64,000 bases of DNA from the NCBI RefSeq assembly GCF_003390325.1, contig NZ_QUOK01000006.1, forward strand, positions 62,001 through 126,000, given 5' to 3'. The position numbers and the translations under genes are program-made. Position 1 is the first letter of the stretch; the number at the start of each line of letters is the position of its first letter. The notes under the pieces were generated by a model, which worked only from the letters and a program-made list of their open reading frames with translations, searched no databases and had not been told where the DNA came from. The DNA is from Rhodohalobacter sp. SW132 (GTDB lineage Bacteria; Bacteroidota; Rhodothermia; Balneolales; Balneolaceae). Below, piece by piece: positions 25,502-37,121 of the stretch.

Positions 25502-27301
25502 ATGAAAAAACAAAACAACGGATTTAAAATCGGATGTATCGTACTCTTTTTGGGTATGACCATCTGGTATCTATTCCCAACTGTTCAGTGGACTCTGGAA
25601 CAGCGTCACATCGACGACATGCCGGAGGCCGAACGCGTAACCTATCTTGATGAAAACCGGGAGCGGCTTCAGAATCTTCAAGCCCGATCACTCTCTCTTG
25701 GACTTGACCTTCAAGGCGGCATGTATGTAACGCTTGAAGTTGGCGTTGCCCAGCTTATTCATGAACTCGCAGGTGATTTTGCGGATGACAGTCTCGAAGA
25801 TATCATCAATACAGCCAATGAACGGTCTATGGAGCAGCGTACAGACTTTATCACCGAATTCGTAAATGAATTTGAAAGCCGTGATCCAAACGCTATGCTT
25901 AGCCGATACTACCGCTCGGATGCGGAAAACATCACTCGCCGATCAACAAACTCCGAGGTGGAAGAGTACCTTCGGGGCCAGCGCAGCAGCGCCGTTGAAC
26001 GTGCGATGGAAATTATCCGGACACGGGTTGACCGTTTTGGTGTAACTGAGCCGTCCATCCTGCAGCAGGGAAACAGCCGCCTCGTGGTTGAACTGCCCGG
26101 TGTAGATGATGAACAGCGAGTTCGGGATTTGTTGCGCGGAACAGCACGGCTTGAATTCCGCCTGACTCCCAATGCGGATGAAATCAGCAACGCCAGGGAT
26201 CAAATCATTCAATATTTTGAGGAACAAGCTGAGGAAGAGAACGGCAACAACCCGCTTCTCGAAGTTCTTAATCCACAGGCACGAAGCCAGTATGTAGTTG
26301 GATTTGCAGCCGGACCTGACACCGCCCGTGTTAACCAGCTTATTTTCCAGGATGAAGTTCTATCCCTTCTGCCCAGAAATTCAACCCTGATGTGGGGCGC
26401 TACACCATTTGCGCAGGACCGGGGTCTCGATCTGTTTGAACTGATTTCTGTCCGTTCACAAGTTGAGATGACCGGCGATATCGTTTCTGAAGCGCGTGTT
26501 GCATTCGATCCGAATACAAACGCTCCGGAAGTTTCCATGACAATGGACTCCGAAGGAACCCGGCGATGGGCACGGATTACCGGGGCAAACATTGGCCGGC
26601 CGGTCGCTATTGTGCTCGACGGTTATGTGTATTCCTACCCGAATGTTCGCTCGAAAATTACGGGTGGACGATCATCCATCTCCGGAATGGGCGGATTGCA
26701 GGAAGCGGAAGATCTTGTAAACATTCTGCTTTCCGGTGCACTTCCTGCACCTCTTGAAATTATTGAGGAGAGAACGGTAGGTGCCACACTCGGTGAGGCA
26801 TCCATTAAAGCCGGTTTCTACTCTGTTATGTTTGGTTTGCTCATTGTTGCCCTGTTTATGATAGCCTACTACCACGTAGGGGGAGGGATTGCCGATTTGG
26901 CGCTTACCCTGAACATCATTTTCATATTAGGGATTCTGGCGGCCTTCAACGCCACACTCACCTTACCGGGTATCGCCGGAATTGTTCTTACGATCGGTAT
27001 GGCGGTGGATGCCAACGTACTGATCTTCGACCGTATCCGCGAGGAGTTGCGAGCCGGTAAAACACTAAGAGCATCCATCGATAACGGCTACTCGAACGCA
27101 ATGAGTGCAATTATTGATGCGAACGTAACGACCTTCTTTGTAGCTGTGATTCTGTTCAGCTTTGGCGTTGGCCCGATTAAAGGCTTCGCGATTACGCTGA
27201 TGGCAGGTATTGCTTCATCACTCTTCAGCGCTATTGTAATCACACGTGTCATTGTAGACTACCTGACTCGTGAAAAAACATCCAGTATCAGTTTTGGATA
27301 A
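25502..27301 (+). CDS. secD: Protein translocase subunit SecD
   Basis: 599 residues. With SecF it uses the proton gradient to help pull secreted proteins through SecYEG. TM1 at about 10-27; periplasmic P1 region with SLGLDLQGGMYVTLEV (the conserved GLDLxGG motif) and ARLEFRLTP; then the five-helix RND bundle (about 430-590) with GMAVDANVLIFDRIREELRA, which carries the conserved Asp. Directly followed by secF (51-bp gap). Confidence 0.97.
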   Translation: MKKQNNGFKIGCIVLFLGMTIWYLFPTVQWTLEQRHIDDMPEAERVTYLDENRERLQNLQARSLSLGLDLQGGMYVTLEVGVAQLIHELAGDFADDSLEDIINTANERSMEQRTDFITEFVNEFESRDPNAMLSRYYRSDAENITRRSTNSEVEEYLRGQRSSAVERAMEIIRTRVDRFGVTEPSILQQGNSRLVVELPGVDDEQRVRDLLRGTARLEFRLTPNADEISNARDQIIQYFEEQAEEENGNNPLLEVLNPQARSQYVVGFAAGPDTARVNQLIFQDEVLSLLPRNSTLMWGATPFAQDRGLDLFELISVRSQVEMTGDIVSEARVAFDPNTNAPEVSMTMDSEGTRRWARITGANIGRPVAIVLDGYVYSYPNVRSKITGGRSSISGMGGLQEAEDLVNILLSGALPAPLEIIEERTVGATLGEASIKAGFYSVMFGLLIVALFMIAYYHVGGGIADLALTLNIIFILGILAAFNATLTLPGIAGIVLTIGMAVDANVLIFDRIREELRAGKTLRASIDNGYSNAMSAIIDANVTTFFVAVILFSFGVGPIKGFAITLMAGIASSLFSAIVITRVIVDYLTREKTSSISFG

Positions 27302-27351
27302 TCAATCGCTGAACAGAAATTTTTTAAATACTTTAAACACAGGTATCAATT

Positions 27352-28275
27352 ATGAAATGGTTTGAAACACCTAATTTTGATTTTATTAAAGCTCAAAAGA
27401 TGATGTATGTCGTCTCCGGGTTTTTATTTATCGGGTCCATTGTGGCAGTATTGACGATGGGACTGAATTACGGTATCGACTTCAGGGGCGGAAAAGAGTA
27501 CGTCTTTGATTTCGAGAATGATGTAGATGTTGTAGAGATACGAGCAGAACTCACCGAAACACTGGGTGCGCCACCTGAACTCAAGCTCTTTGGTTCATCA
27601 AGTGATATTCTCATCCGAACAGATGCAGAAGGTGACATCGGTGATGTCCAGAATACTATTATGGCTTCACTCACCCAGCTTTATCCGGATAATCCGGTGA
27701 CGGTCATCAAAACAGATGTAGTGGGGCCGCGCTTTGCGGAAGACCTCAAGGTTGCAGCGATTAATTCCATTTTATTTGCTGTGGCAGTTATTTTCATCTA
27801 CATTCTGATACGGTTTAAAGGGTGGTATTTTTCCGCCGGTGCCGTTGCCGCATTGATTCATGATGTGGTTATTGTACTCGGAATTTTCACCATCCTGGAA
27901 CCGCTGGTGAATTTTAATGTCACGATCGACCAGGCACTGATTGCCGCATTCCTTACCATTGTGGGTTACTCCCTTAACGATACGGTGGTTGTTTTTGACC
28001 GTATCCGGGAGAACTCTCTGATCTATAAAACGATGGAGTTTAAGGATATGATTAACAAAAGTTTGAATGACACCCTTAGCCGAACGGTTGTCACTTCGGT
28101 TACAACCTTGTTTGTGGTCACCGTGCTGTTTATATTCGGCGGAGAAGTGCTTAAAGGTTTCGCCTTCGCCCTTGTAATCGGAGTCATTCTGGGTACTTAC
28201 AGCTCACTTTTCGTAGCAAGTTCTTTTGTTGTGGAACTGCAGAAACGAGCACTCAAAGCAAAGGCAAAGTCGTAA
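27352..28275 (+). CDS. secF: Protein translocase subunit SecF
   Basis: 307 residues and six membrane helices. Motifs: MGLNYGIDFRGGKEY (the conserved GxDFxGG), DVVGPRFAEDLKVAAI, ALIHDVVIVLGIF and VGYSLNDTVVVFDRIREN (transmembrane Asp). It is the partner of SecD just upstream. The STAS gene follows after 30 bp, so the three probably share a transcript. Confidence 0.97.
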   Translation: MKWFETPNFDFIKAQKMMYVVSGFLFIGSIVAVLTMGLNYGIDFRGGKEYVFDFENDVDVVEIRAELTETLGAPPELKLFGSSSDILIRTDAEGDIGDVQNTIMASLTQLYPDNPVTVIKTDVVGPRFAEDLKVAAINSILFAVAVIFIYILIRFKGWYFSAGAVAALIHDVVIVLGIFTILEPLVNFNVTIDQALIAAFLTIVGYSLNDTVVVFDRIRENSLIYKTMEFKDMINKSLNDTLSRTVVTSVTTLFVVTVLFIFGGEVLKGFAFALVIGVILGTYSSLFVASSFVVELQKRALKAKAKS

Positions 28276-28305
28276 ACTAATTTATAATCACAAACGGAAA
28301 TAGTC

Positions 28306-28647
28306 ATGGGTTTTAATGTTTCAGAGCGTTATAACTGTGTTGTCATCGCATTTAAAGGAAATGTGATGGGAGGACCAGATGCAGTAAGTTTAAATGAAAA
28401 GCTTCACGAGCTGATCGAAAAAGATCAAAAAAACGTGGTCGTTGACCTCAGTAAAGTGAAGTTTATGAACTCGTCGGGTCTTGGAATGCTAATTGGCGGC
28501 CTTACAACAATGAGGAAAGCCGGCGGCGATCTGAGGATCTGCAACGCAGGTGATAAGATTGAAAGTCTGCTTATCGTAACAAAGCTAATCACCGTGTTCA
28601 AGCATTATCAATCGCTTGATGAGGCGGTTGAATCGTACTCAGAATAA
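28306..28647 (+). CDS. STAS-domain protein, anti-sigma factor antagonist-like
   Basis: 113 residues forming a single STAS domain: VVVDLSKVKFMNSSGLGMLI contains the conserved serine pair whose phosphorylation in SpoIIAA/RsbV proteins switches partner binding. In those families an anti-sigma kinase phosphorylates it, but no such kinase lies next door. Position after secDF on the same strand suggests cotranscription. Ends 34 bp before an intrinsic terminator. Confidence 0.9.
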   Translation: MGFNVSERYNCVVIAFKGNVMGGPDAVSLNEKLHELIEKDQKNVVVDLSKVKFMNSSGLGMLIGGLTTMRKAGGDLRICNAGDKIESLLIVTKLITVFKHYQSLDEAVESYSE

Positions 28648-28663
28648 CTGCTTTGAACCTTAA

Positions 28664-29989
<1,326 letters not shown>

Positions 29990-29991
29990 CG

Positions 29992-31116
29992 ATGACGGAT
30001 TCCGGCGATTCTTTTTTTGTCGATTACTGTTTTTCAGCCGGATCTCAATCCGAAGCTGAGGATAAAGCATCAGGCATTGCAGTGGAGCAATCAGCTGAAC
30101 TTCCGGTTGAAACCGTACCCCGGCACTTGCTTGATTACGTAGGTACGGTTGAGGAATTGCAAGAACAAGAAGAGGCGGGAAATCGCTGGAAAGCCAAAAT
30201 CTTTTTCAAAAAAGAGATTGTCTCCGGGGATACGGTTCAGTTTTTAAACGTTGTTTTTGGCAATGTATCCATCAAACCCGGAGTTCAGGTCACCGGCCTT
30301 GATCCCGGTTTTCTTTCCACGCTATTCAGCGGCCCAAATCATGGAATTGATGGAATACGTGAGCGATTATCAGCACCAAAACGTCCGCTGAGCTGTACCG
30401 CGTTAAAACCGATTGGCAGCAGTTCTGAAGAACTGGCCCGGATTGCCACAGAATTTGCCGGAGGCGGCATTGATATAATCAAGGATGATCATGGGCTGGC
30501 AAATCAATCCCTCGCAGATTTTAAATCCCGTGTTCAATCGTGCGTTCCGGCAATACGAGATGCTGAAAATCTTTCAGGAAAAAAGACACTTTACTTCCCT
30601 AACATCACCGGTACATTCAGGGAACTTACGGAACGTGCAGAATTTGCCGCTCAACATGGAGCTGATGGATTCCTGATCTCACCACAATTGACAGGACTTT
30701 ATTCAGTGAGTGAATTAGCTGCAATGTTTCCTGATATGCCAATCATGGCTCATCCTGCATTTTCCGGACCCTATACAATCCACAAACATTCCGGTTTTGC
30801 CCCATCGGTCTACTTCGGGATGCTCTGGCGCGCACTTGGGGCTGATTGTGTGATTTATCCCAATGCAGGGGGACGATTCTCCTATCATGTGGATGAGTGC
30901 AACGAGATTAACCGGATGTGCAGAAGTAATGATCTTCAAATGAAACGATCTTTTCCTGTACCTGCCGGCGGAATAGACAGAAACAGCCTGCAGAAATGGA
31001 TGGATGAGTATGGAGCTGACACACTTTTTTTAATCGGGGGAAGTTTGTATAAGCATCCCAAAGGATTAACAGTAGCTGCCCGTGAGTTCCAAACAAAATT
31101 GAGTGAATATGAGTAA
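29992..31116 (+). CDS. RuBisCO-like protein (form IV large-subunit homologue)
   Basis: 374 residues. It has the RuBisCO large-chain fold: N-terminal alpha/beta domain (SFFVDYCFSAGSQSEAEDKA), then the TIM barrel. The first catalytic Lys is kept (LSCTALKPIGSSSEELARIA). The metal-site motif reads GGGIDIIKDDHGLANQ: the carbamylated Lys and the Asp are present, but His replaces the following Glu of true RuBisCO. The loop-6 region reads YPNAGGRFSYHVDE without the loop-6 Lys. It is therefore not a carboxylase but an enolase/isomerase-type RLP. The ATG at 29992 is preferred; the open frame reaches back inside purA. The following cupin gene overlaps it by 8 bp, suggesting a joint pathway, possibly methylthioadenosine salvage. 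Confidence 0.92.
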   Translation: MTDSGDSFFVDYCFSAGSQSEAEDKASGIAVEQSAELPVETVPRHLLDYVGTVEELQEQEEAGNRWKAKIFFKKEIVSGDTVQFLNVVFGNVSIKPGVQVTGLDPGFLSTLFSGPNHGIDGIRERLSAPKRPLSCTALKPIGSSSEELARIATEFAGGGIDIIKDDHGLANQSLADFKSRVQSCVPAIRDAENLSGKKTLYFPNITGTFRELTERAEFAAQHGADGFLISPQLTGLYSVSELAAMFPDMPIMAHPAFSGPYTIHKHSGFAPSVYFGMLWRALGADCVIYPNAGGRFSYHVDECNEINRMCRSNDLQMKRSFPVPAGGIDRNSLQKWMDEYGADTLFLIGGSLYKHPKGLTVAAREFQTKLSEYE

Positions 31117-31564
31117 AAGCAAGTCCGCTGTACTATCATGCGATAATTTCTCCTGGGATGGGGTTGAAAAAAAGATTTATAAAACCGAAACCGATAATTT
31201 TCGTGATATTCACCGGTACACCCTTCTCGGTGATGAACATTCCGAGCTCAACTCCGAAACCCGATATTTTGAGATTCAGCCGGATGGATACTCCTCACTG
31301 GAATATCACCGCCATCCGCACTCCGTAGTGATCATCCGCGGAAGCGGGTCCGTTATTCTTAATGATGAACTTCATTCCATTCAGTCATTTGATGTAGTCT
31401 ATATCGGCCCGGAAACGATACACCAGTTTCACGCCGATAATGGGGAAGAACTTGGTTTTATTTGCGTTGTGGATCGATATAGAGATCGTCCTTCCATTCC
31501 GGACGATGACCAGATCCGCAATACAATACGATCAGAAAAAATTTTAAAGAAAATCAGAAAATAG
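31109..31564 (+). CDS. Cupin-domain protein coupled to the RuBisCO-like protein
   Basis: 151 residues with a single cupin barrel. Motif 1 is GYSSLEYHRHPHSVVIIRGS (metal His residues) and motif 2 is VVYIGPETIHQFHADNGEEL (further His). The ATG at 31109 overlaps the end of the RuBisCO-like gene (ATGAGTAA), so the two are translated together. In Rhodospirillum rubrum a RuBisCO-like isomerase works with a cupin that splits off methanethiol from 1-methylthioxylulose 5-phosphate; this gene is a candidate for an analogous role by context only. A generic sugar-phosphate isomerase or dioxygenase cupin is the alternative. Confidence 0.88.
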   Translation: MSKSKSAVLSCDNFSWDGVEKKIYKTETDNFRDIHRYTLLGDEHSELNSETRYFEIQPDGYSSLEYHRHPHSVVIIRGSGSVILNDELHSIQSFDVVYIGPETIHQFHADNGEELGFICVVDRYRDRPSIPDDDQIRNTIRSEKILKKIRK

Positions 31565-31672
31565 TGTTGAAAAGGTAGTGCAAATCGTTTTATATTTTAA
31601 GTCTTGATTGAAACGTAATTCACTTGTTTCAAATCAATTTCTATTGACATTTTGATAACTATATATTCCCAA

Positions 31673-31745
31673 GCGGGAATAGCTCAGTGGTAGAGTCCCG
31701 AAAGCGTTCGGGACCAACGAGAAGGTCAACGCCTTCCCTACCACC
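31673..31745 (+). pseudogene. Degenerate tRNA-Gly-like unit, copy 1
   Basis: The first 23 nt (GCGGGAATAGCTCAGTGGTA, then GAG) equal the acceptor 5' strand and D arm of the real tRNA-Gly. The anticodon 5' half is replaced by hairpin TCCCGAA-AGCG-TTCGGGA. CCAACGAGAAGGTC matches the real gene again, then the T arm and acceptor 3' strand are replaced by AACGCCTTCCCTACCACC. It cannot form a tRNA. It could fold as GTGGTAG...CTACCAC enclosing two hairpins. It repeats 102 bp downstream. Confidence 0.8.
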
Positions 31746-31774
31746 TTGACATTTTGATAACTACATATTCCCAA

Positions 31775-31847
31775 GCGGGAATAGCTCAGTGGTAGAGTCC
31801 CGAAAGCGTTCGGGACCAACGAGAAGGTCAACGCCTTTCCTACCACC
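31775..31847 (+). pseudogene. Degenerate tRNA-Gly-like unit, copy 2
   Basis: Almost identical to copy 1 (one C-to-T change in CCTTTCCTACCACC, on the side of the second hairpin). Preceded by the same segment TTGACATTTTGATAACTA as copy 1 and as the functional tRNA, at an exact 102-bp period. The near identity suggests recent duplication or selection. Confidence 0.8.
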
Positions 31848-31876
31848 TTGACATTTTGATAACTACATATTCCCAG

Positions 31877-31948
31877 GCGGGAATAGCTCAGTGGTAGAGC
31901 ATCTCGTTGCCAACGAGAAGGTCGCCGGTTCAAATCCGGTTTCCCGCT
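31877..31948 (+). tRNA. tRNA-Gly (anticodon GCC)
   Basis: 72 nt with a complete cloverleaf: acceptor GCGGGAA/TTCCCGC, D arm GCTC...GAGC, anticodon arm TCTCG-TTGCCAA-CGAGA (anticodon GCC), T arm GCCGG-TTCAAAT-CCGGT, discriminator T. CCA is not encoded (TCA follows). The 5' flank TATTCCCAGGCGGGAATA is itself a hairpin that would compete with the acceptor stem before 5' processing. A terminator follows directly. Confidence 0.97.
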
Positions 31949-31955
31949 CATTTAC

Positions 31956-31992
31956 AAAAAAGCTCAAAGACATCCTCTTTGAGCTTTTTTTA
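31956..31992 (+). terminator. Rho-independent terminator of the tRNA-Gly unit
   Basis: AAAAGCTCAAAGA-CATCC-TCTTTGAGCTTTTTTT, a stem of at least 13 bp with a U-run, starting 8 bp after the tRNA. Confidence 0.93.
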
Positions 31993-32015
31993 TTTCAACA
32001 TCATATTCAAGAGAT

Positions 32016-32237
32016 ATGTTTTACACCTACATTCTGTACAGCTCTTCAACAGATCGATACTACACCGGCCACACCAGTACCACTTTAGAGAAACGAGTTC
32101 AGCGGCATAACCAGGGCGATAATCCATCCACAAAACCCGGCATTCCCTGGTCACTGAAATTCTATAAATCGTTTGATACCAAAACCGAAGCCATCAAGTT
32201 CGAAAATCTTATTAAACGAAAGAAAAGCCGAATTTAA
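32016..32237 (+). CDS. Small GIY-YIG-family nuclease domain protein
   Basis: 73 residues. The N-terminus FYTYILYSSSTDRYYTGHTS carries the GIY-YIG pair in the variant YTYIL...YYTGHT; then LEKRVQRHN (Arg and His region) and EAIKFENLIKRKKSR. This is the standalone small family of unknown function (UPF0213-like). The TAA stop comes early; without it, the codons that follow would read I-E-T-F-L, resembling the usual family ending (KSR-x-[YF]-I-E-x-L), so a nonsense mutation trimming a few residues is possible. It sits between tRNA-Gly and a palindromic repeat array. Confidence 0.82.
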   Translation: MFYTYILYSSSTDRYYTGHTSTTLEKRVQRHNQGDNPSTKPGIPWSLKFYKSFDTKTEAIKFENLIKRKKSRI

Positions 32238-32239
32238 AT

Positions 32240-32940
32240 CGAGACATTTCTTTGATCTATCGTTTTGAAAACGCTCCATTGCCGCGGCTCAGCGAGCCGT
32301 GCTACGTAAACCGGATCGCCGATCCGGAAACCACATCCAACCAGAGGCGAAGATCTCTTTCGGTTCACTCGAAACTTGATCGAGGCATCCACATGATTAA
32401 TCGTTTTTAAAATGCTCAATTGCTGCGGCTCAGCGAGCCGCGCTACATAATCGGCTCGGCGAGCCGTGGTACGTAAACCGGATCGCTGATCCGGAAACCA
32501 TATCCAGCCAGAGACAAAGATCCCTTTCAGTTCACTCGAAACTTGATCGAGGCATCCACATGATTAATCGTTTTTAAAATGCTCAATTGCCGCGGCTCGG
32601 CGAGCCGTGGTACGTAAACCGGATCGCCGATCCGAAAACCATATCCAGCCAGAGGTGAAGGTCTCTTTCGGCACACTCGAAACTTGATCGAGGCATCCAC
32701 ATGATCTATCGTTTTGAAAACACTCCATTGTCGCGGCTCGGCGAGCCGTGGTACGTAAACCGGATCGCCGATCCGGAAACCATATCCAGCCAGAGGTGAA
32801 GGTCTCTTTCGGCACACTCGAAACTTGATCGAGGCATCCACATGATCTATCGTTTTGAAAACACTCCATTGTCGCGGCTCGGCGAGCCGCGCTACGGAAA
32901 TCAGCTCGGCGAGCCGGGGTACGGTGGCATTTTATCTGAA
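32240..32940. repeat. Tandem array of GC-rich palindromic units, mostly 141-bp period
   Basis: The marker GAAACTTGATCGAGGCATCC occurs at 32371, 32538, 32679 and 32820, giving periods of 167, 141 and 141. The first interval is longer because of an inserted segment of about 26 bp containing another CGGCTCGGCGAGCCG hairpin. Each unit has two hairpins, CGGCTCGGCGAGCCG and CCGGATCGCCGATCCGG, followed by about 90 bp of linker. The minus-strand frames through it only reflect the repeat (repeating Gly-Tyr-Gly-Phe-Arg). A final truncated unit ends 50 bp before the M28 peptidase gene. Confidence 0.85.
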
Positions 32941-32990
32941 AATGTTTCACCTTATCGGATTGTAAATTTTACGTTCACAACCACCTGATT

Positions 32991-35096
32991 ATGTCACGAT
33001 TTCACTCTCTGCCGGTCTTCATTCTTTGCTTTTTTATTTTTGCGCATTGCACCACAGAATATGAACCGGAGCTGACCGGCTTTTCGGAAAATCAGATCCA
33101 GTCCCAGAGAGAAATCGAACAGAGTCTGCTTACCAAGCATACACCTGAAAGATATCGTCATCATCTTTATAATTTAACTCAAACGCCTGCTTTTGCAGGT
33201 CAGGAAGAGAATCGCGAGGTGATTGAGTACATTCACTCCACTATGCAAAATGCAGGTCTGACTGTCGAAAATTATGACTATGATGTGCTTCTGCCACAGC
33301 CCGGTACGGTATCCGTAAAAATCGTTACACCCGATCAGGTTGAGCTCCCCAACAAAGAGTATGAATATGAGGAAGATCCATATACATCCCATTCTAATCT
33401 TGTTCATGGCTGGGCTGCATATTCGGGCAGCGGTACCATATCAGCGGAGATTGTATACGCGAACTACGGCACAAAAGAGGATTTTGAACGGCTTACGAAT
33501 CTTGGAGTTTCTGTAGAAGGAAAAATCGTCCTCGCCCGTTTTGGCGGCAATTTCAGAGGGTATAAAGCGAAATATGCTGAAGAAGCGGGAGCTGCCGGAC
33601 TCATCATGTATACCGATCCGCCATCCGATCGTGATAACGTTTATCCGAACGGAATTCAACCGGATGAGAGCGCCATTCAGCGGGGTTCACTTCTTACTCT
33701 CGATTATTACGGTGATCCGCTTACACCGTTCGAGCCGGCACTTCCGCTCGAGCATCCGGATTCCCCGGAACGACTGGAGATCGACGATGTGGACTTTCAC
33801 TCCATTCCGGTCGCCCCGATTGGTTACGGCGCTGCAGAAGAGATACTGAGCCGAATGCAGGGCGATCCGGCTCCGGATGACTGGCAGGGTAATTTTGATT
33901 TCCCTTATCCGGTGACCGGTGGAAGCGACCTGACCGTGGAACTGCATGTTGATCAGCCGTATGAGATGAAACGAATCTCAAATGTCATCGGCACCATCGA
34001 AGGGAGTGAGTACCCGGATGAGTGGATTATCCTGGGAGCACATCTCGACGCATGGTCGTTTGGTGCAACAGATCCGAATAGCGGAACCGCCATGCTGCTA
34101 ACCCTTGCTGAATCTATCATGGAGCTTGTTGAAGAGGGATATCAGCCAAAACGCAGTATACTGATTGGCCACTGGGATGCCGAAGAGTTTATGCTGATCG
34201 GTTCATCGGAATGGGTTGAACATCTTGAAGATGAGCTGATGGCAAAATCTGTCCTCTATCTGAACGCAGACATGTCGGTCACGGGACCCAACTTTCGGGC
34301 ATCATCATCCCCATCCCTCAAAAAACCGATCATTGAGGCCGCAAAATCGGTTACTCATCCCGATACCGGTTTTTCCATGTATGATTACTGGGCTGGAAAT
34401 TCATCGGATAGCTCACCCGTAATCGGAAATCTTGGCGGCGGTTCCGATCACGTTGGCTTTTACATGTATGCGGGCATTCCATCGGCCGGGGTGTCTATTT
34501 CCGGTTCCGTGCCAATATATCACACCAATTTTGACACCTTCTGGTTTTATGAAAACCACCTGGATCCCGACTTTAGCTATGGACCGGCTCTCGCCGATGT
34601 CTACGGTTTGATCGCCCTTCGTTTTGCCAGCGCTCAGATTTTGCCGTATGACATTCCAAGCTATTCAACTGACCTGAACACCCACCTTGAATCCATTCGT
34701 GATCGGGCCGGGAGCGATATTTTTGATGGCAGCGGTTTGATGGAGATTACAGGACAGATTACACAGGATATCGAAACCTATGAAAACCGGTTAGGCCAAT
34801 ACCTCGACCGCGGGCAAATTGAAAATGCCGAAGCTATTAACCGGGAGTTGATTCAGCTTGAGCGTGCTTTCCTGAACGATGAGGGACTTCCATTCAGTCC
34901 GTGGCTTCGATCACTTTATGCATCATCTGACCCATATAGCGGTTACGCCTCGTGGATGTTCCCTGCCTACCGGTACGCGATTGAAGAAGGCTTGCTGGAT
35001 GATGAAGAGTTTATGGAAGAGCTGCACAATGCTCATTTGCAGGCGCTGACACGCTTTTCTGATACGTTACAGCGGGTTATTCAGAATATGGAATGA
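32991..35096 (+). CDS. M28-family metallopeptidase resembling glutamate carboxypeptidase II (PSMA)
   Basis: 701 residues, exported (SLPVFILCFFIFAHC; the Cys may be lipidated though His at -1 is atypical). Domains: protease-associated domain (about 130-280, GKIVLARFGGNFRGYKAKYA), M28 di-zinc peptidase (about 320-560) with ligands in LGAHLDAWSFGATDPNSGTA, HWDAEEFMLIGSSEW (catalytic Glu pair), LNADMSVTG and GGGSDHVGFY/YHTNFDTF, and a C-terminal TFR-like dimerisation domain (about 580-700). Domain order and spacing match the PSMA/NAALADase family. Probable periplasmic exopeptidase. Monocistronic. Confidence 0.94.
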   Translation: MSRFHSLPVFILCFFIFAHCTTEYEPELTGFSENQIQSQREIEQSLLTKHTPERYRHHLYNLTQTPAFAGQEENREVIEYIHSTMQNAGLTVENYDYDVLLPQPGTVSVKIVTPDQVELPNKEYEYEEDPYTSHSNLVHGWAAYSGSGTISAEIVYANYGTKEDFERLTNLGVSVEGKIVLARFGGNFRGYKAKYAEEAGAAGLIMYTDPPSDRDNVYPNGIQPDESAIQRGSLLTLDYYGDPLTPFEPALPLEHPDSPERLEIDDVDFHSIPVAPIGYGAAEEILSRMQGDPAPDDWQGNFDFPYPVTGGSDLTVELHVDQPYEMKRISNVIGTIEGSEYPDEWIILGAHLDAWSFGATDPNSGTAMLLTLAESIMELVEEGYQPKRSILIGHWDAEEFMLIGSSEWVEHLEDELMAKSVLYLNADMSVTGPNFRASSSPSLKKPIIEAAKSVTHPDTGFSMYDYWAGNSSDSSPVIGNLGGGSDHVGFYMYAGIPSAGVSISGSVPIYHTNFDTFWFYENHLDPDFSYGPALADVYGLIALRFASAQILPYDIPSYSTDLNTHLESIRDRAGSDIFDGSGLMEITGQITQDIETYENRLGQYLDRGQIENAEAINRELIQLERAFLNDEGLPFSPWLRSLYASSDPYSGYASWMFPAYRYAIEEGLLDDEEFMEELHNAHLQALTRFSDTLQRVIQNME

Positions 35097-35203
35097 ATGT
35101 GTTGTGTCAGTGGTGAGAGATCCACCCGAAGTCATCGGATGAGTGGGTAGGGCTACATTTTACTCTGTGAGCTTATGAAATGGATAATGTACAGGTCGGA
35201 CAA

Positions 35204-35234
35204 TTCACCGGATGAAGCGAATTCATCCGGTGAA
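35204..35234. repeat. Hairpin TTCACCGGATGAA / TTCATCCGGTGAA
   Basis: Perfect 13-bp inverted repeat with a 5-nt loop between convergent genes. It could act as a terminator, though it has no strong U-run. Just upstream (35131-35148) lies GTCATCGGATGAGTGGGT, whose reverse complement recurs near 49.33 kb, so this is part of a dispersed repeat. Confidence 0.7.
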
Positions 35235-35312
35235 GATTTTCATCAAACATACCTGTCGATACATCATTGACACGACAGTAGACTCGAGTCATTGCTAATT
35301 TACCCCTGCTCA

Positions 35313-36503
35313 CTATTCTATTTCTACAAAATCCAGTTCGAACTTTACAATTTCTTCTGCCCCGGCCTCATTCTCTATTCTCATATAAACGTGCCCGTTC
35401 CGAACCGTTTCAATTCTTTGCTCACGGGGCAGTAAATGTCTTGCCAGTAGTTCTCCCGAATTGTCCAGGAGCCACCATTCGTACAGATCTTCATCATCAA
35501 TAATTGTTGAAATCCAAAGTCTGTCATCGTCATCACTCATAAATCTTTGTACGACAGGCCAGTTCTCAGGCAGATCAGAGGACCGTGCTGCTCGTCTGTA
35601 GTTTTCGTTATTATAATATTGCAGAGCAGTTTCCCTGGAAAGATGTTTTCGTGAAAACGGATAATAGACCGCTCTCTGATAAGTGCCATTATGGTCGTAA
35701 TATCGAAAAAGAAACTGATCGGACCTGTTTACCACAATTCCATCCTGGGTCGTATCCAATTTAAATTTGGCTCCAAAGGGAGTACCAAAAACCGAAACGC
35801 TATTTGCCGTTCTATCCACAAGTACAAAATCTGCTTTTTCTCTTAAAACCTGTTCCGGCTTAACATTTCCTTCCTGAGTGATTTTGTAAAACAGGTCGTA
35901 GCGTTCTTCATCCCCTGAATCGGAACCGGCTCTTCCGAATGGCTGACTGAACCGAACTAACAAATCGGAATGGGTTGACAGCCAGAATACTGATGGAGAA
36001 TATCCGGCGAGTTCATCTTGCGGTTCTCCCTCAACCTGTAATGGAATTGTATTTACATATTGCAGTGTTTCAGTCGAAAAAAAGTTTACCCTGTGCAGAC
36101 CAAAATCCTTCGCATAGATATAGTTATCATCCAGCACTAAATTGTGAATGTACTCAAATTCGCCAGGACCTCTTCCCTCACGACCCAAAAGTTCTATTAA
36201 ATGGCCATCCGCATCAAATACAATGATTTGTTTATTACTGTCATCGGCAATGAAAACGCGACCGGATTGATCTACTTGAACGCCTGAGATTCTCCCAATA
36301 ATCATATCACCCATATCGCCAAAACGTTGTTTTCTTGTTAGTTCAATTGAAAACTGCGGTTCCGGATCTGATGGAAAAACAGTCAGATTTTCGAGGTTGG
36401 CAACGGATTCAGGCAGTTCCGAATTCTCAGAACCGGCACATGAGGATAACAAAAACAGGGATGCAGCGCTCAGGATAGAAAATAGATAGATATTACGTGT
36501 CAT
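35313..36503 (-). CDS. 6-bladed beta-propeller lipoprotein (NHL/BF3243-like)
   Basis: 396 residues from the ATG at 36503; the frame extends to 36533, but MTRNIYLFSILSAASLFLLS followed by SC gives a proper lipoprotein signal with lipobox LSSC. The mature chain has propeller blades: GRISGVQVDQSGRVFIADDS, IIVFDADGHLIELLGREGRG and VLDDNYIYAKDFGLHRVNFF. Bacteroidota propeller lipoproteins of this type are common and mostly uncharacterised. No adjacent partner is obvious; the MauE-like gene is upstream on the same strand. Confidence 0.88.
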   Translation of the reverse strand: MTRNIYLFSILSAASLFLLSSCAGSENSELPESVANLENLTVFPSDPEPQFSIELTRKQRFGDMGDMIIGRISGVQVDQSGRVFIADDSNKQIIVFDADGHLIELLGREGRGPGEFEYIHNLVLDDNYIYAKDFGLHRVNFFSTETLQYVNTIPLQVEGEPQDELAGYSPSVFWLSTHSDLLVRFSQPFGRAGSDSGDEERYDLFYKITQEGNVKPEQVLREKADFVLVDRTANSVSVFGTPFGAKFKLDTTQDGIVVNRSDQFLFRYYDHNGTYQRAVYYPFSRKHLSRETALQYYNNENYRRAARSSDLPENWPVVQRFMSDDDDRLWISTIIDDEDLYEWWLLDNSGELLARHLLPREQRIETVRNGHVYMRIENEAGAEEIVKFELDFVEIE

Positions 36504-36662
36504 CGGCAAGGCCTCACTGAATAGAATTCTCATTAAATAACGAAGTGAGAGATAATAGAGTTATTTAGATTTGCATTCAATAACCCATTTATGGATTTAC
36601 CCCTGAGAAAGGAAGATGATTGATAAAAAAGCACCCATCGAAAACTTACTGCATATGAAGCT

Positions 36663-37121
36663 CTACCTGAATTTTCTCTCAGGATTGTAAAACAGAATGC
36701 CAGCCATCGCCAGAAATATTCCATTTCGGATTACCATCGACCAGCCAAATGTGCTTCCGAGCAGCATGGCGAGAATATTAGAGTCGTCCGGTTCGCCAAA
36801 ACAGCCGCAGTCTCCTTCCATCCCGGATCCGAGGCCGTAGACGGCAAAGGCAAAAAATCCAAGGTAGATCATAGCGCCAACCGGGATGACGGTTTTCCTG
36901 AAGATTCCGGTAATCATCAGCGCACCGACCAGTACCTCAACGTAGGGCAGCAGATCGATCACAAACGATTTTAAACCAGTGGGAAGCCACGAAATGTAGG
37001 CGATCGTTTCGAAAAGTGCGGAATTATCCTGCAGTTTGAATACGCCCGCAATCAGCAGAAGCGCGCCCAGGATGACGCGGAAACTGATTTGTACGATTGA
37101 GATGATTTTTTTCTTATACAT
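36663..37121 (-). CDS. MauE/DoxX-family membrane protein
   Basis: 152 residues with four transmembrane helices (VILGALLLIAGVFKLQD; LPYVEVLVGALMITGIF; VIPVGAMIYLGFFAFAVYGL; SMVIRNGIFLAMAGILFYN). The loop motif GDCGCFGEPDDSN is the hallmark CGCFG of MauE-like proteins, which in some systems help thiol/disulfide maturation of partner proteins. No methylamine dehydrogenase genes are nearby, so the role here is more likely a general membrane thiol-redox or bilayer function. Confidence 0.85.
   Translation of the reverse strand: MYKKKIISIVQISFRVILGALLLIAGVFKLQDNSALFETIAYISWLPTGLKSFVIDLLPYVEVLVGALMITGIFRKTVIPVGAMIYLGFFAFAVYGLGSGMEGDCGCFGEPDDSNILAMLLGSTFGWSMVIRNGIFLAMAGILFYNPERKFR

Follow-up and report, generated by a model that had tools for sequence, protein, structure and literature searches.

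In the T4 and T6 phages, SegB is a free-standing GIY-YIG homing endonuclease that is encoded beside tRNA genes, and tandem units of tRNA plus segB have been described that are recombination-dependent and involve microhomology between the 5' end of the tRNA and the 3' end of segB (PMC13096335). This is the nearest documented system to the locus described here. Tyrosine-integrase elements located at tRNA genes leave an intact tRNA and a partial tRNA copy on the other side, group I introns with homing endonuclease genes occur in tRNA anticodon loops, and Rickettsia palindromic elements, REP-like repeats and mitochondrial double-hairpin elements place short hairpins inside RNA genes and in intergenic DNA. 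In a literature search outside subscription papers, no account was found of bacterial tRNA/GIY-YIG cassettes, nor of RNase P RNA interrupted by GIY-YIG genes.

The locus is located in a stretch of 64,000 nucleotides from Rhodohalobacter sp. SW132, a member of the Balneolaceae, which as a whole is called here the window; the relatives named in the analysis are Rhodohalobacter, Gracilimonas, Fodinibius and Balneola. Sequence analyses revealed an intact tRNA-Gly gene preceded by two upstream (U) units and followed by a small nuclease gene, with the following features:

31567-31597, + strand: likely promoter of the tRNA-Gly locus, TTG-N19-TATATTT, Bacteroidota type, predicted by consensus match
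31644-31745, + strand: U unit 1, made up of a leader, tRNA-Gly nt 1-23, a hairpin, tRNA nt 34-47 and a private tail
31673-31695, 31696-31713, 31714-31727 and 31728-31745, + strand: parts of U unit 1, respectively nt 1-23, hairpin, nt 34-47 and tail
31746-31847, + strand: U unit 2, with the same anatomy as U unit 1
31775-31797, 31798-31815, 31816-31829 and 31830-31847, + strand: parts of U unit 2, respectively 5' part, hairpin, nt 34-47 and tail
31877-31949, + strand: intact tRNA-Gly, anticodon GCC (ARAGORN; Rfam RF00005, 75.5 bits)
31960-31991, + strand: probable intrinsic terminator after the tRNA, AAGCTCAAAGA-catcc-TCTTTGAGCTT followed by a T run, read by eye
32016-32237, + strand: small GIY-YIG nuclease ORF of 73 aa (Pfam PF01541, 7.7e-16)
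32285-32900, no strand assigned: palindrome-rich tandem repeats, with 141/167-bp units of several palindromes (TRF)

A sequence-only reading of this DNA had described two near-identical 102-bp units, chimeric copies of tRNA-Gly, ahead of a third unit that holds a real tRNA-Gly, and on this point the sequence, ARAGORN, Rfam and TRF agreed. Units 1 and 2 differ at 2 of 102 positions (98% identity) and were reported by TRF as a single array with a period of 102 and a 98% match. ARAGORN called no tRNA in either unit, an Rfam scan of both showed no match to any structured RNA family, and an exact-pattern scan of genome contigs with the unit sequence returned no match. The tRNA-Gly(GCC) at 31877-31949 was the only copy found in the host genome (tRNA list, 30 of 38 hits typed). 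The hairpin is the same in both units (TCCCGA-AAGCGT-TCGGGA), has a perfect stem and an expected number of 0.04 in the window, and is directly followed by nt 34-47 of tRNA-Gly (CCAACGAGAAGGTC). This retained segment was overlooked when the 3' half was described as replaced. The 18-nt tail that comes after it contains a CTACCAC able to pair with GTGGTAG of the D arm, as had been proposed. Both units fold as described in that reading, with predicted energies of -36.9 kcal/mol (z -5.1) for unit 1 and -35.0 kcal/mol (z -4.2) for unit 2.

On the other side of the tRNA, the probable terminator has an A+T-rich stem and was not reported by the terminator scan. The sequence-only reading had not noted the GIY-YIG gene, located some 70 bp beyond the 3' end of the tRNA, or the matching downstream (D) copies of the tRNA in relatives. 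The nuclease is truncated at its C-terminus, with homology running on through two in-frame stops to about 32258, and the palindrome-rich repeats start directly after it, where a D copy would be expected; no D copy remains in the region of the window 3' of the nuclease.

Units 1 and 2 are probably what a chromosomal homing-endonuclease cassette, specific to the tRNA-Gly gene, has left behind: displaced, dead copies of tRNA-Gly(GCC). The cassette itself would be the small GIY-YIG nuclease gene that immediately follows the tRNA. The nuclease would cut the tRNA gene on a cassette-free chromosome, recombinational repair would then copy the cassette in, with one intact tRNA beside the nuclease, and pieces of the old tRNA would remain outside the cassette as U and D copies. 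Arrays would grow by repeated rounds of this process or by unequal recombination between copies. A short hairpin, often TCCCGA-n-TCGGGA, which is a dispersed genomic palindrome, overwrites the anticodon and/or T arm of the displaced copies. The overwritten arms leave a single functional tRNA, and they would probably render the copies uncuttable and poor partners for cassette loss, which is the reason that we prefer for their replacement. With its nuclease truncated and its D copy gone, the cassette in the window looks dead.

The proposed cassette has in common with SegB a free-standing GIY-YIG gene located by many kinds of tRNA and the tandem tRNA plus nuclease repeats, and the running of the nuclease ORF into the downstream tRNA copy resembles the microhomology between tRNA and segB ends. 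It differs from SegB in its occurrence on bacterial chromosomes, with no phage or plasmid match, in its ORFs of about 88 aa, in the single target tRNA of each nuclease clade, in the leftover copies with hairpin-replaced arms, and in that RNase P RNA is interrupted too. As in tRNA-integrated elements, a tRNA gene is occupied, an intact tRNA is left and a partial copy stands opposite. Unlike in these elements, no large cargo lies between the copies, no integrase was noticed among the ORFs of 27000-37000 of the window or between copies in relatives, and partial copies with hairpin-replaced arms are found on both sides and in arrays. The combination of a homing-type nuclease and the tRNA anticodon region is shared with group I introns; a group I intron in the tRNA was nevertheless rejected, as the tRNA is contiguous (ARAGORN) and Rfam found no intron family in the window or in seven tested loci. 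Short hairpins inside RNA genes and in intergenic DNA are also a property of the short palindromic elements, but here they are about 16-20 bp long, have changing loops and repeatedly replace tRNA arms beside a nuclease.

In many of the 92 genomes of the family that were searched, tRNA-Gly was found to be accompanied by partial copies of itself, with a common plan. The U copies keep the 5' part of the tRNA and the 3' strand of the anticodon stem, and have the 5' strand of the anticodon arm replaced by the hairpin. The D copies come after the GIY-YIG ORF, carry the hairpin in the anticodon arm, the T arm or both, and retain the acceptor 3' strand and the terminator; the ORF often ends inside the D copy, at the TAG of the tRNA sequence GGGAATAG. 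The 14 nt that follow the anticodon hairpin were those of the genome's own tRNA or had 1-3 differences from it, though the stems differ between genera (in this comparison, one hairpin, at locus L132, was typed as anticodon and is really a T-arm hairpin). The stems vary in paired fashion (TCCCGA/TCGGGA, TCCCGC/GCGGGA, TCCCGT/ACGGGA, CCCCGA/TCGGGG and TTCCGA/TCGGAA), a variation that is descriptive because the search rule demanded perfect stems, and the loops change freely among copies. Complete U-tRNA-GIY-D order was observed at L112, where the ORF is interrupted by one stop, and U-U-tRNA-GIY-D-GIY-D order at L060. Equal numbers of U and D copies (2/2 at L060, 1/1 at L112) were considered as proof of nested insertion and this was set aside, since many loci have D copies only. 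In one genome (G066), a mirror order was seen at tRNA-Ser(CGA), with 5' copies and GIY-YIG ORFs upstream of the intact tRNA (L176).

In relatives, the U units retain the 5' half, the place of the hairpin and the 3' strand of the anticodon stem, and these follow each genome's own tRNA. The description of the units as decayed duplicates was thus close, though incomplete, in its second word, while the free decay implied by the first is contradicted by the relatives. In loci that are cassette-free or have D copies only, the putative promoter motif is found immediately upstream of the tRNA. Of 9 loci with U copies, 7 have it immediately upstream of the outermost of these, and the search rule missed the other two; in the window, both U units are located 3' of the likely promoter. 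Because of this position of the motif, the U copies probably stand where the tRNA formerly started and are transcribed together with it.

The relationship between the nuclease and the copies was evaluated in 51 tRNA-Gly(GCC) loci of the family. Nuclease and hairpin copies were both present in 23 loci, the nuclease only in 2, hairpin copies only in 0 and neither in 26 (Fisher p about 1e-12, a value that is descriptive since some loci were chosen for having copies and the genomes are related). A recount gave 23, 3, 0 and 25, the difference being L125, which has a nuclease and no copies and had been scored as nuclease-free by the ORF-start rule. Occupied and cassette-free loci were both found within one genus. 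Among the nuclease-free loci, L142 is a deletion product that retains the first codons of the nuclease and L131 still has a D remnant, with no TCCCG hairpin, thus indicating that some of these loci are losses and not never-occupied sites. Some nuclease-bearing tRNA loci are without hairpin copies and some hairpin copies are without a remaining nuclease, so that the homing-cassette reading requires decay or loss. The intact tRNA is identical in occupied and cassette-free genomes, which counts against homing, as the sparing of the cassette's own tRNA is unaccounted for. A recoded, nuclease-resistant rescue tRNA was rejected because occupied and cassette-free genomes do not differ in the anticodon stem of the intact tRNA.

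The nuclease is encoded by its own ORF, outside any intron or intein. Residues Y5, Y16, G18, R27, H31 and E63 are invariant across the family alignment and are all kept in the window copy. The pN/pS of the nuclease was low, with a median of 0.32 and a value of 0.14 between the window and its nearest relative, indicating that the gene has been under purifying selection. Nuclease genes have a tRNA gene less than 1 kb away: in a search based on sequence alone, which returned relatives at Gly in Balneolaceae and at Ala in Maribacter, 15 of 16 were located 3' of a tRNA (ARAGORN), and the 16th was found at the end of a contig, next to the 3' half of a tRNA. Phylogenetic analysis, based on 90 columns only and with several open forks, revealed that the nuclease clades follow the target gene, with 15 label changes on the tree compared to a mean of 28 after shuffling (0 of 200 shuffles as low). 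The Asp, Asn, RNase P and most of the Met and Gly rows cluster together, and so do most of the Ala rows, from Maribacter and two other genera. Searches of phage and plasmid collections returned no relative of the nuclease at E 1e-5, and an origin from either was therefore rejected. The GIY-YIG domain, the separate ORF, the occupied and cassette-free alleles and the site-specific lineages observed here are all features of a free-standing GIY-YIG homing endonuclease.

Copies with a hairpin in place of the anticodon and/or T arm were found for about 17 kinds of tRNA in the Balneolaceae and other Bacteroidota, next to the intact tRNA and in company with a small GIY-YIG nuclease gene that usually follows the tRNA immediately. 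Pattern searches, which together with family searches are the basis of the genome-wide statistics, gave hits in 14 of 394 genomes of the phylum and in 18 of 249 genomes of a second family; most hits were U or D copies beside intact Val, Ala, Arg, Phe, Asn, Met, Pro, Lys, Leu and Gly(TCC) tRNAs, and a minority were unrelated hairpins. The anatomy of the tRNA-Gly loci is repeated at tRNA-Ala in Maribacter, whose loci were found apart from the 249-genome search, and further relatives of the nuclease in the family are located at Ser, Val, Met, Pro, Asp and Asn tRNAs. In the host genome, where 30 tRNA loci were inspected, tRNA-Asn is flanked by three hairpin units and a nuclease, and like debris was found at two tRNA-Arg genes and at Asp, Pro, Ala and Met. 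The same genome contains, at L173 (C1:940500-943500), a tandem pair of GIY-YIG ORFs accompanied by 3' parts of tRNA-Asp and by TCCCGA hairpins; there is no intact tRNA-Asp in this place, but one is located elsewhere (L214).

Genes other than those of tRNAs were also involved. In one genus, the RNase P RNA gene of 3 congeners out of 8 was found to carry a GIY-YIG ORF in its P3 loop (loci L187, L198, L199 and L200; genomes G001, G003 and G004), and the remaining 5 have a short P3 hairpin. In another genome (G012), a GIY-YIG ORF lies within the 5' end of an rfbB-like gene and divides it (L191, 1020-1420, reverse strand); the start of this gene is duplicated, with a second, slightly different start region after the ORF.

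The copies could also be ordinary tandem tRNA duplications, produced by replication or recombination errors and colonised by common palindromes, with the GIY-YIG gene as a passenger at tRNA flanks; we regard this as unlikely. In its favour, the palindromes are spread genome-wide, with 26 TCCCGA hairpins in the host genome vs 0 for the reversed control, and TCCCGA-n-TCGGGA hairpins are found inside RNase P RNA genes (three in L075) and one 23S rRNA gene of relatives (loci L075, L077 and L071). In the host genome, the intact tRNA-Met gene is directly preceded by a copy of its nt 1-64 (L225) that has neither hairpin nor nuclease; this copy also fits duplication, although it is perhaps an early stage. 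Against duplication stand the lack of hairpin copies without a nuclease among the 51 loci of the family, the specificity of the nuclease clades for one tRNA and the replacement of the same arms at unrelated tRNAs in distant families. As TCCCGA hairpins are also present far from tRNAs, they are not cassette-specific, and their dispersal across the genome and in RNase P and 23S rRNA genes suggests that they may belong to an independently spreading palindrome that serves as a patch. Dispersed elements carrying the TCCCGA hairpin were observed in the host genome (L004-L007), several of them with long terminal inverted repeats (ACCTGAGTTC...GAACTCAGGT).

It is very improbable that the units are a small structured RNA derived from tRNA-Gly, or a decoy for a synthetase, RNase P or a tRNA-cutting toxin. 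A small RNA and a decoy had been among the suggestions of the sequence-only reading, which also saw a possible three-way junction. The strong predicted folds of both units, and their probable position within the tRNA transcript, would suit this function, but the tail pairing that forms the junction is missing from the U units of relatives and is private to this genome, so that a conserved three-way junction was rejected and a small RNA or decoy built on one is not supported. The absence of an Rfam match, the variation in unit number, spacer and tail between relatives, and the many loci with downstream copies only also argue against it.

There is likewise little to be said for the U units being a selected leader, which would insulate the tRNA from misfolding with extra 5' halves or tune tRNA dosage in the manner of SegB amplification. 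The location of the units 3' of the likely promoter is consistent with such a leader, and SegB does amplify tRNA-Tyr along with its own gene (PMC13096335). In thermodynamic folding, however, native leaders at equilibrium protected the acceptor stem no better than shuffled leaders, a result that does not support insulation, and the copies cannot be functional tRNAs, hence they would add no dosage. Finally, tandem repeats misassemble easily and runs of N occur inside some relatives' arrays, but an assembly artefact, also raised earlier, is hardly credible, and is excluded for the phenomenon as such, since the same arrangement is seen at many tRNA genes and in numerous genomes assembled independently of one another.

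The reading of units 1 and 2 as remnants of a homing cassette leads to a broader and more tentative proposal: the Bacteroidota may possibly harbour a large class of tiny, selfish cassettes by which essential RNA genes are cut and restored in one act, with the replaced arms protecting the cassette from re-cutting or recombinational loss. The targets of this class would be tRNAs of some 17 kinds and RNase P RNA, and the cassettes would represent a natural cut-and-reconstitute drive. If this is true, the recurrence of one palindrome family in tRNA remnants, RNase P RNA and 23S rRNA loops would become testable, and the odd tRNA fragments found near bacterial tRNA genes would gain a cause. The system would also serve as a natural model for the cutting of an essential gene by an element that nonetheless leaves it whole, and essential, conserved tRNA genes would be standing targets of homing endonucleases across a phylum.
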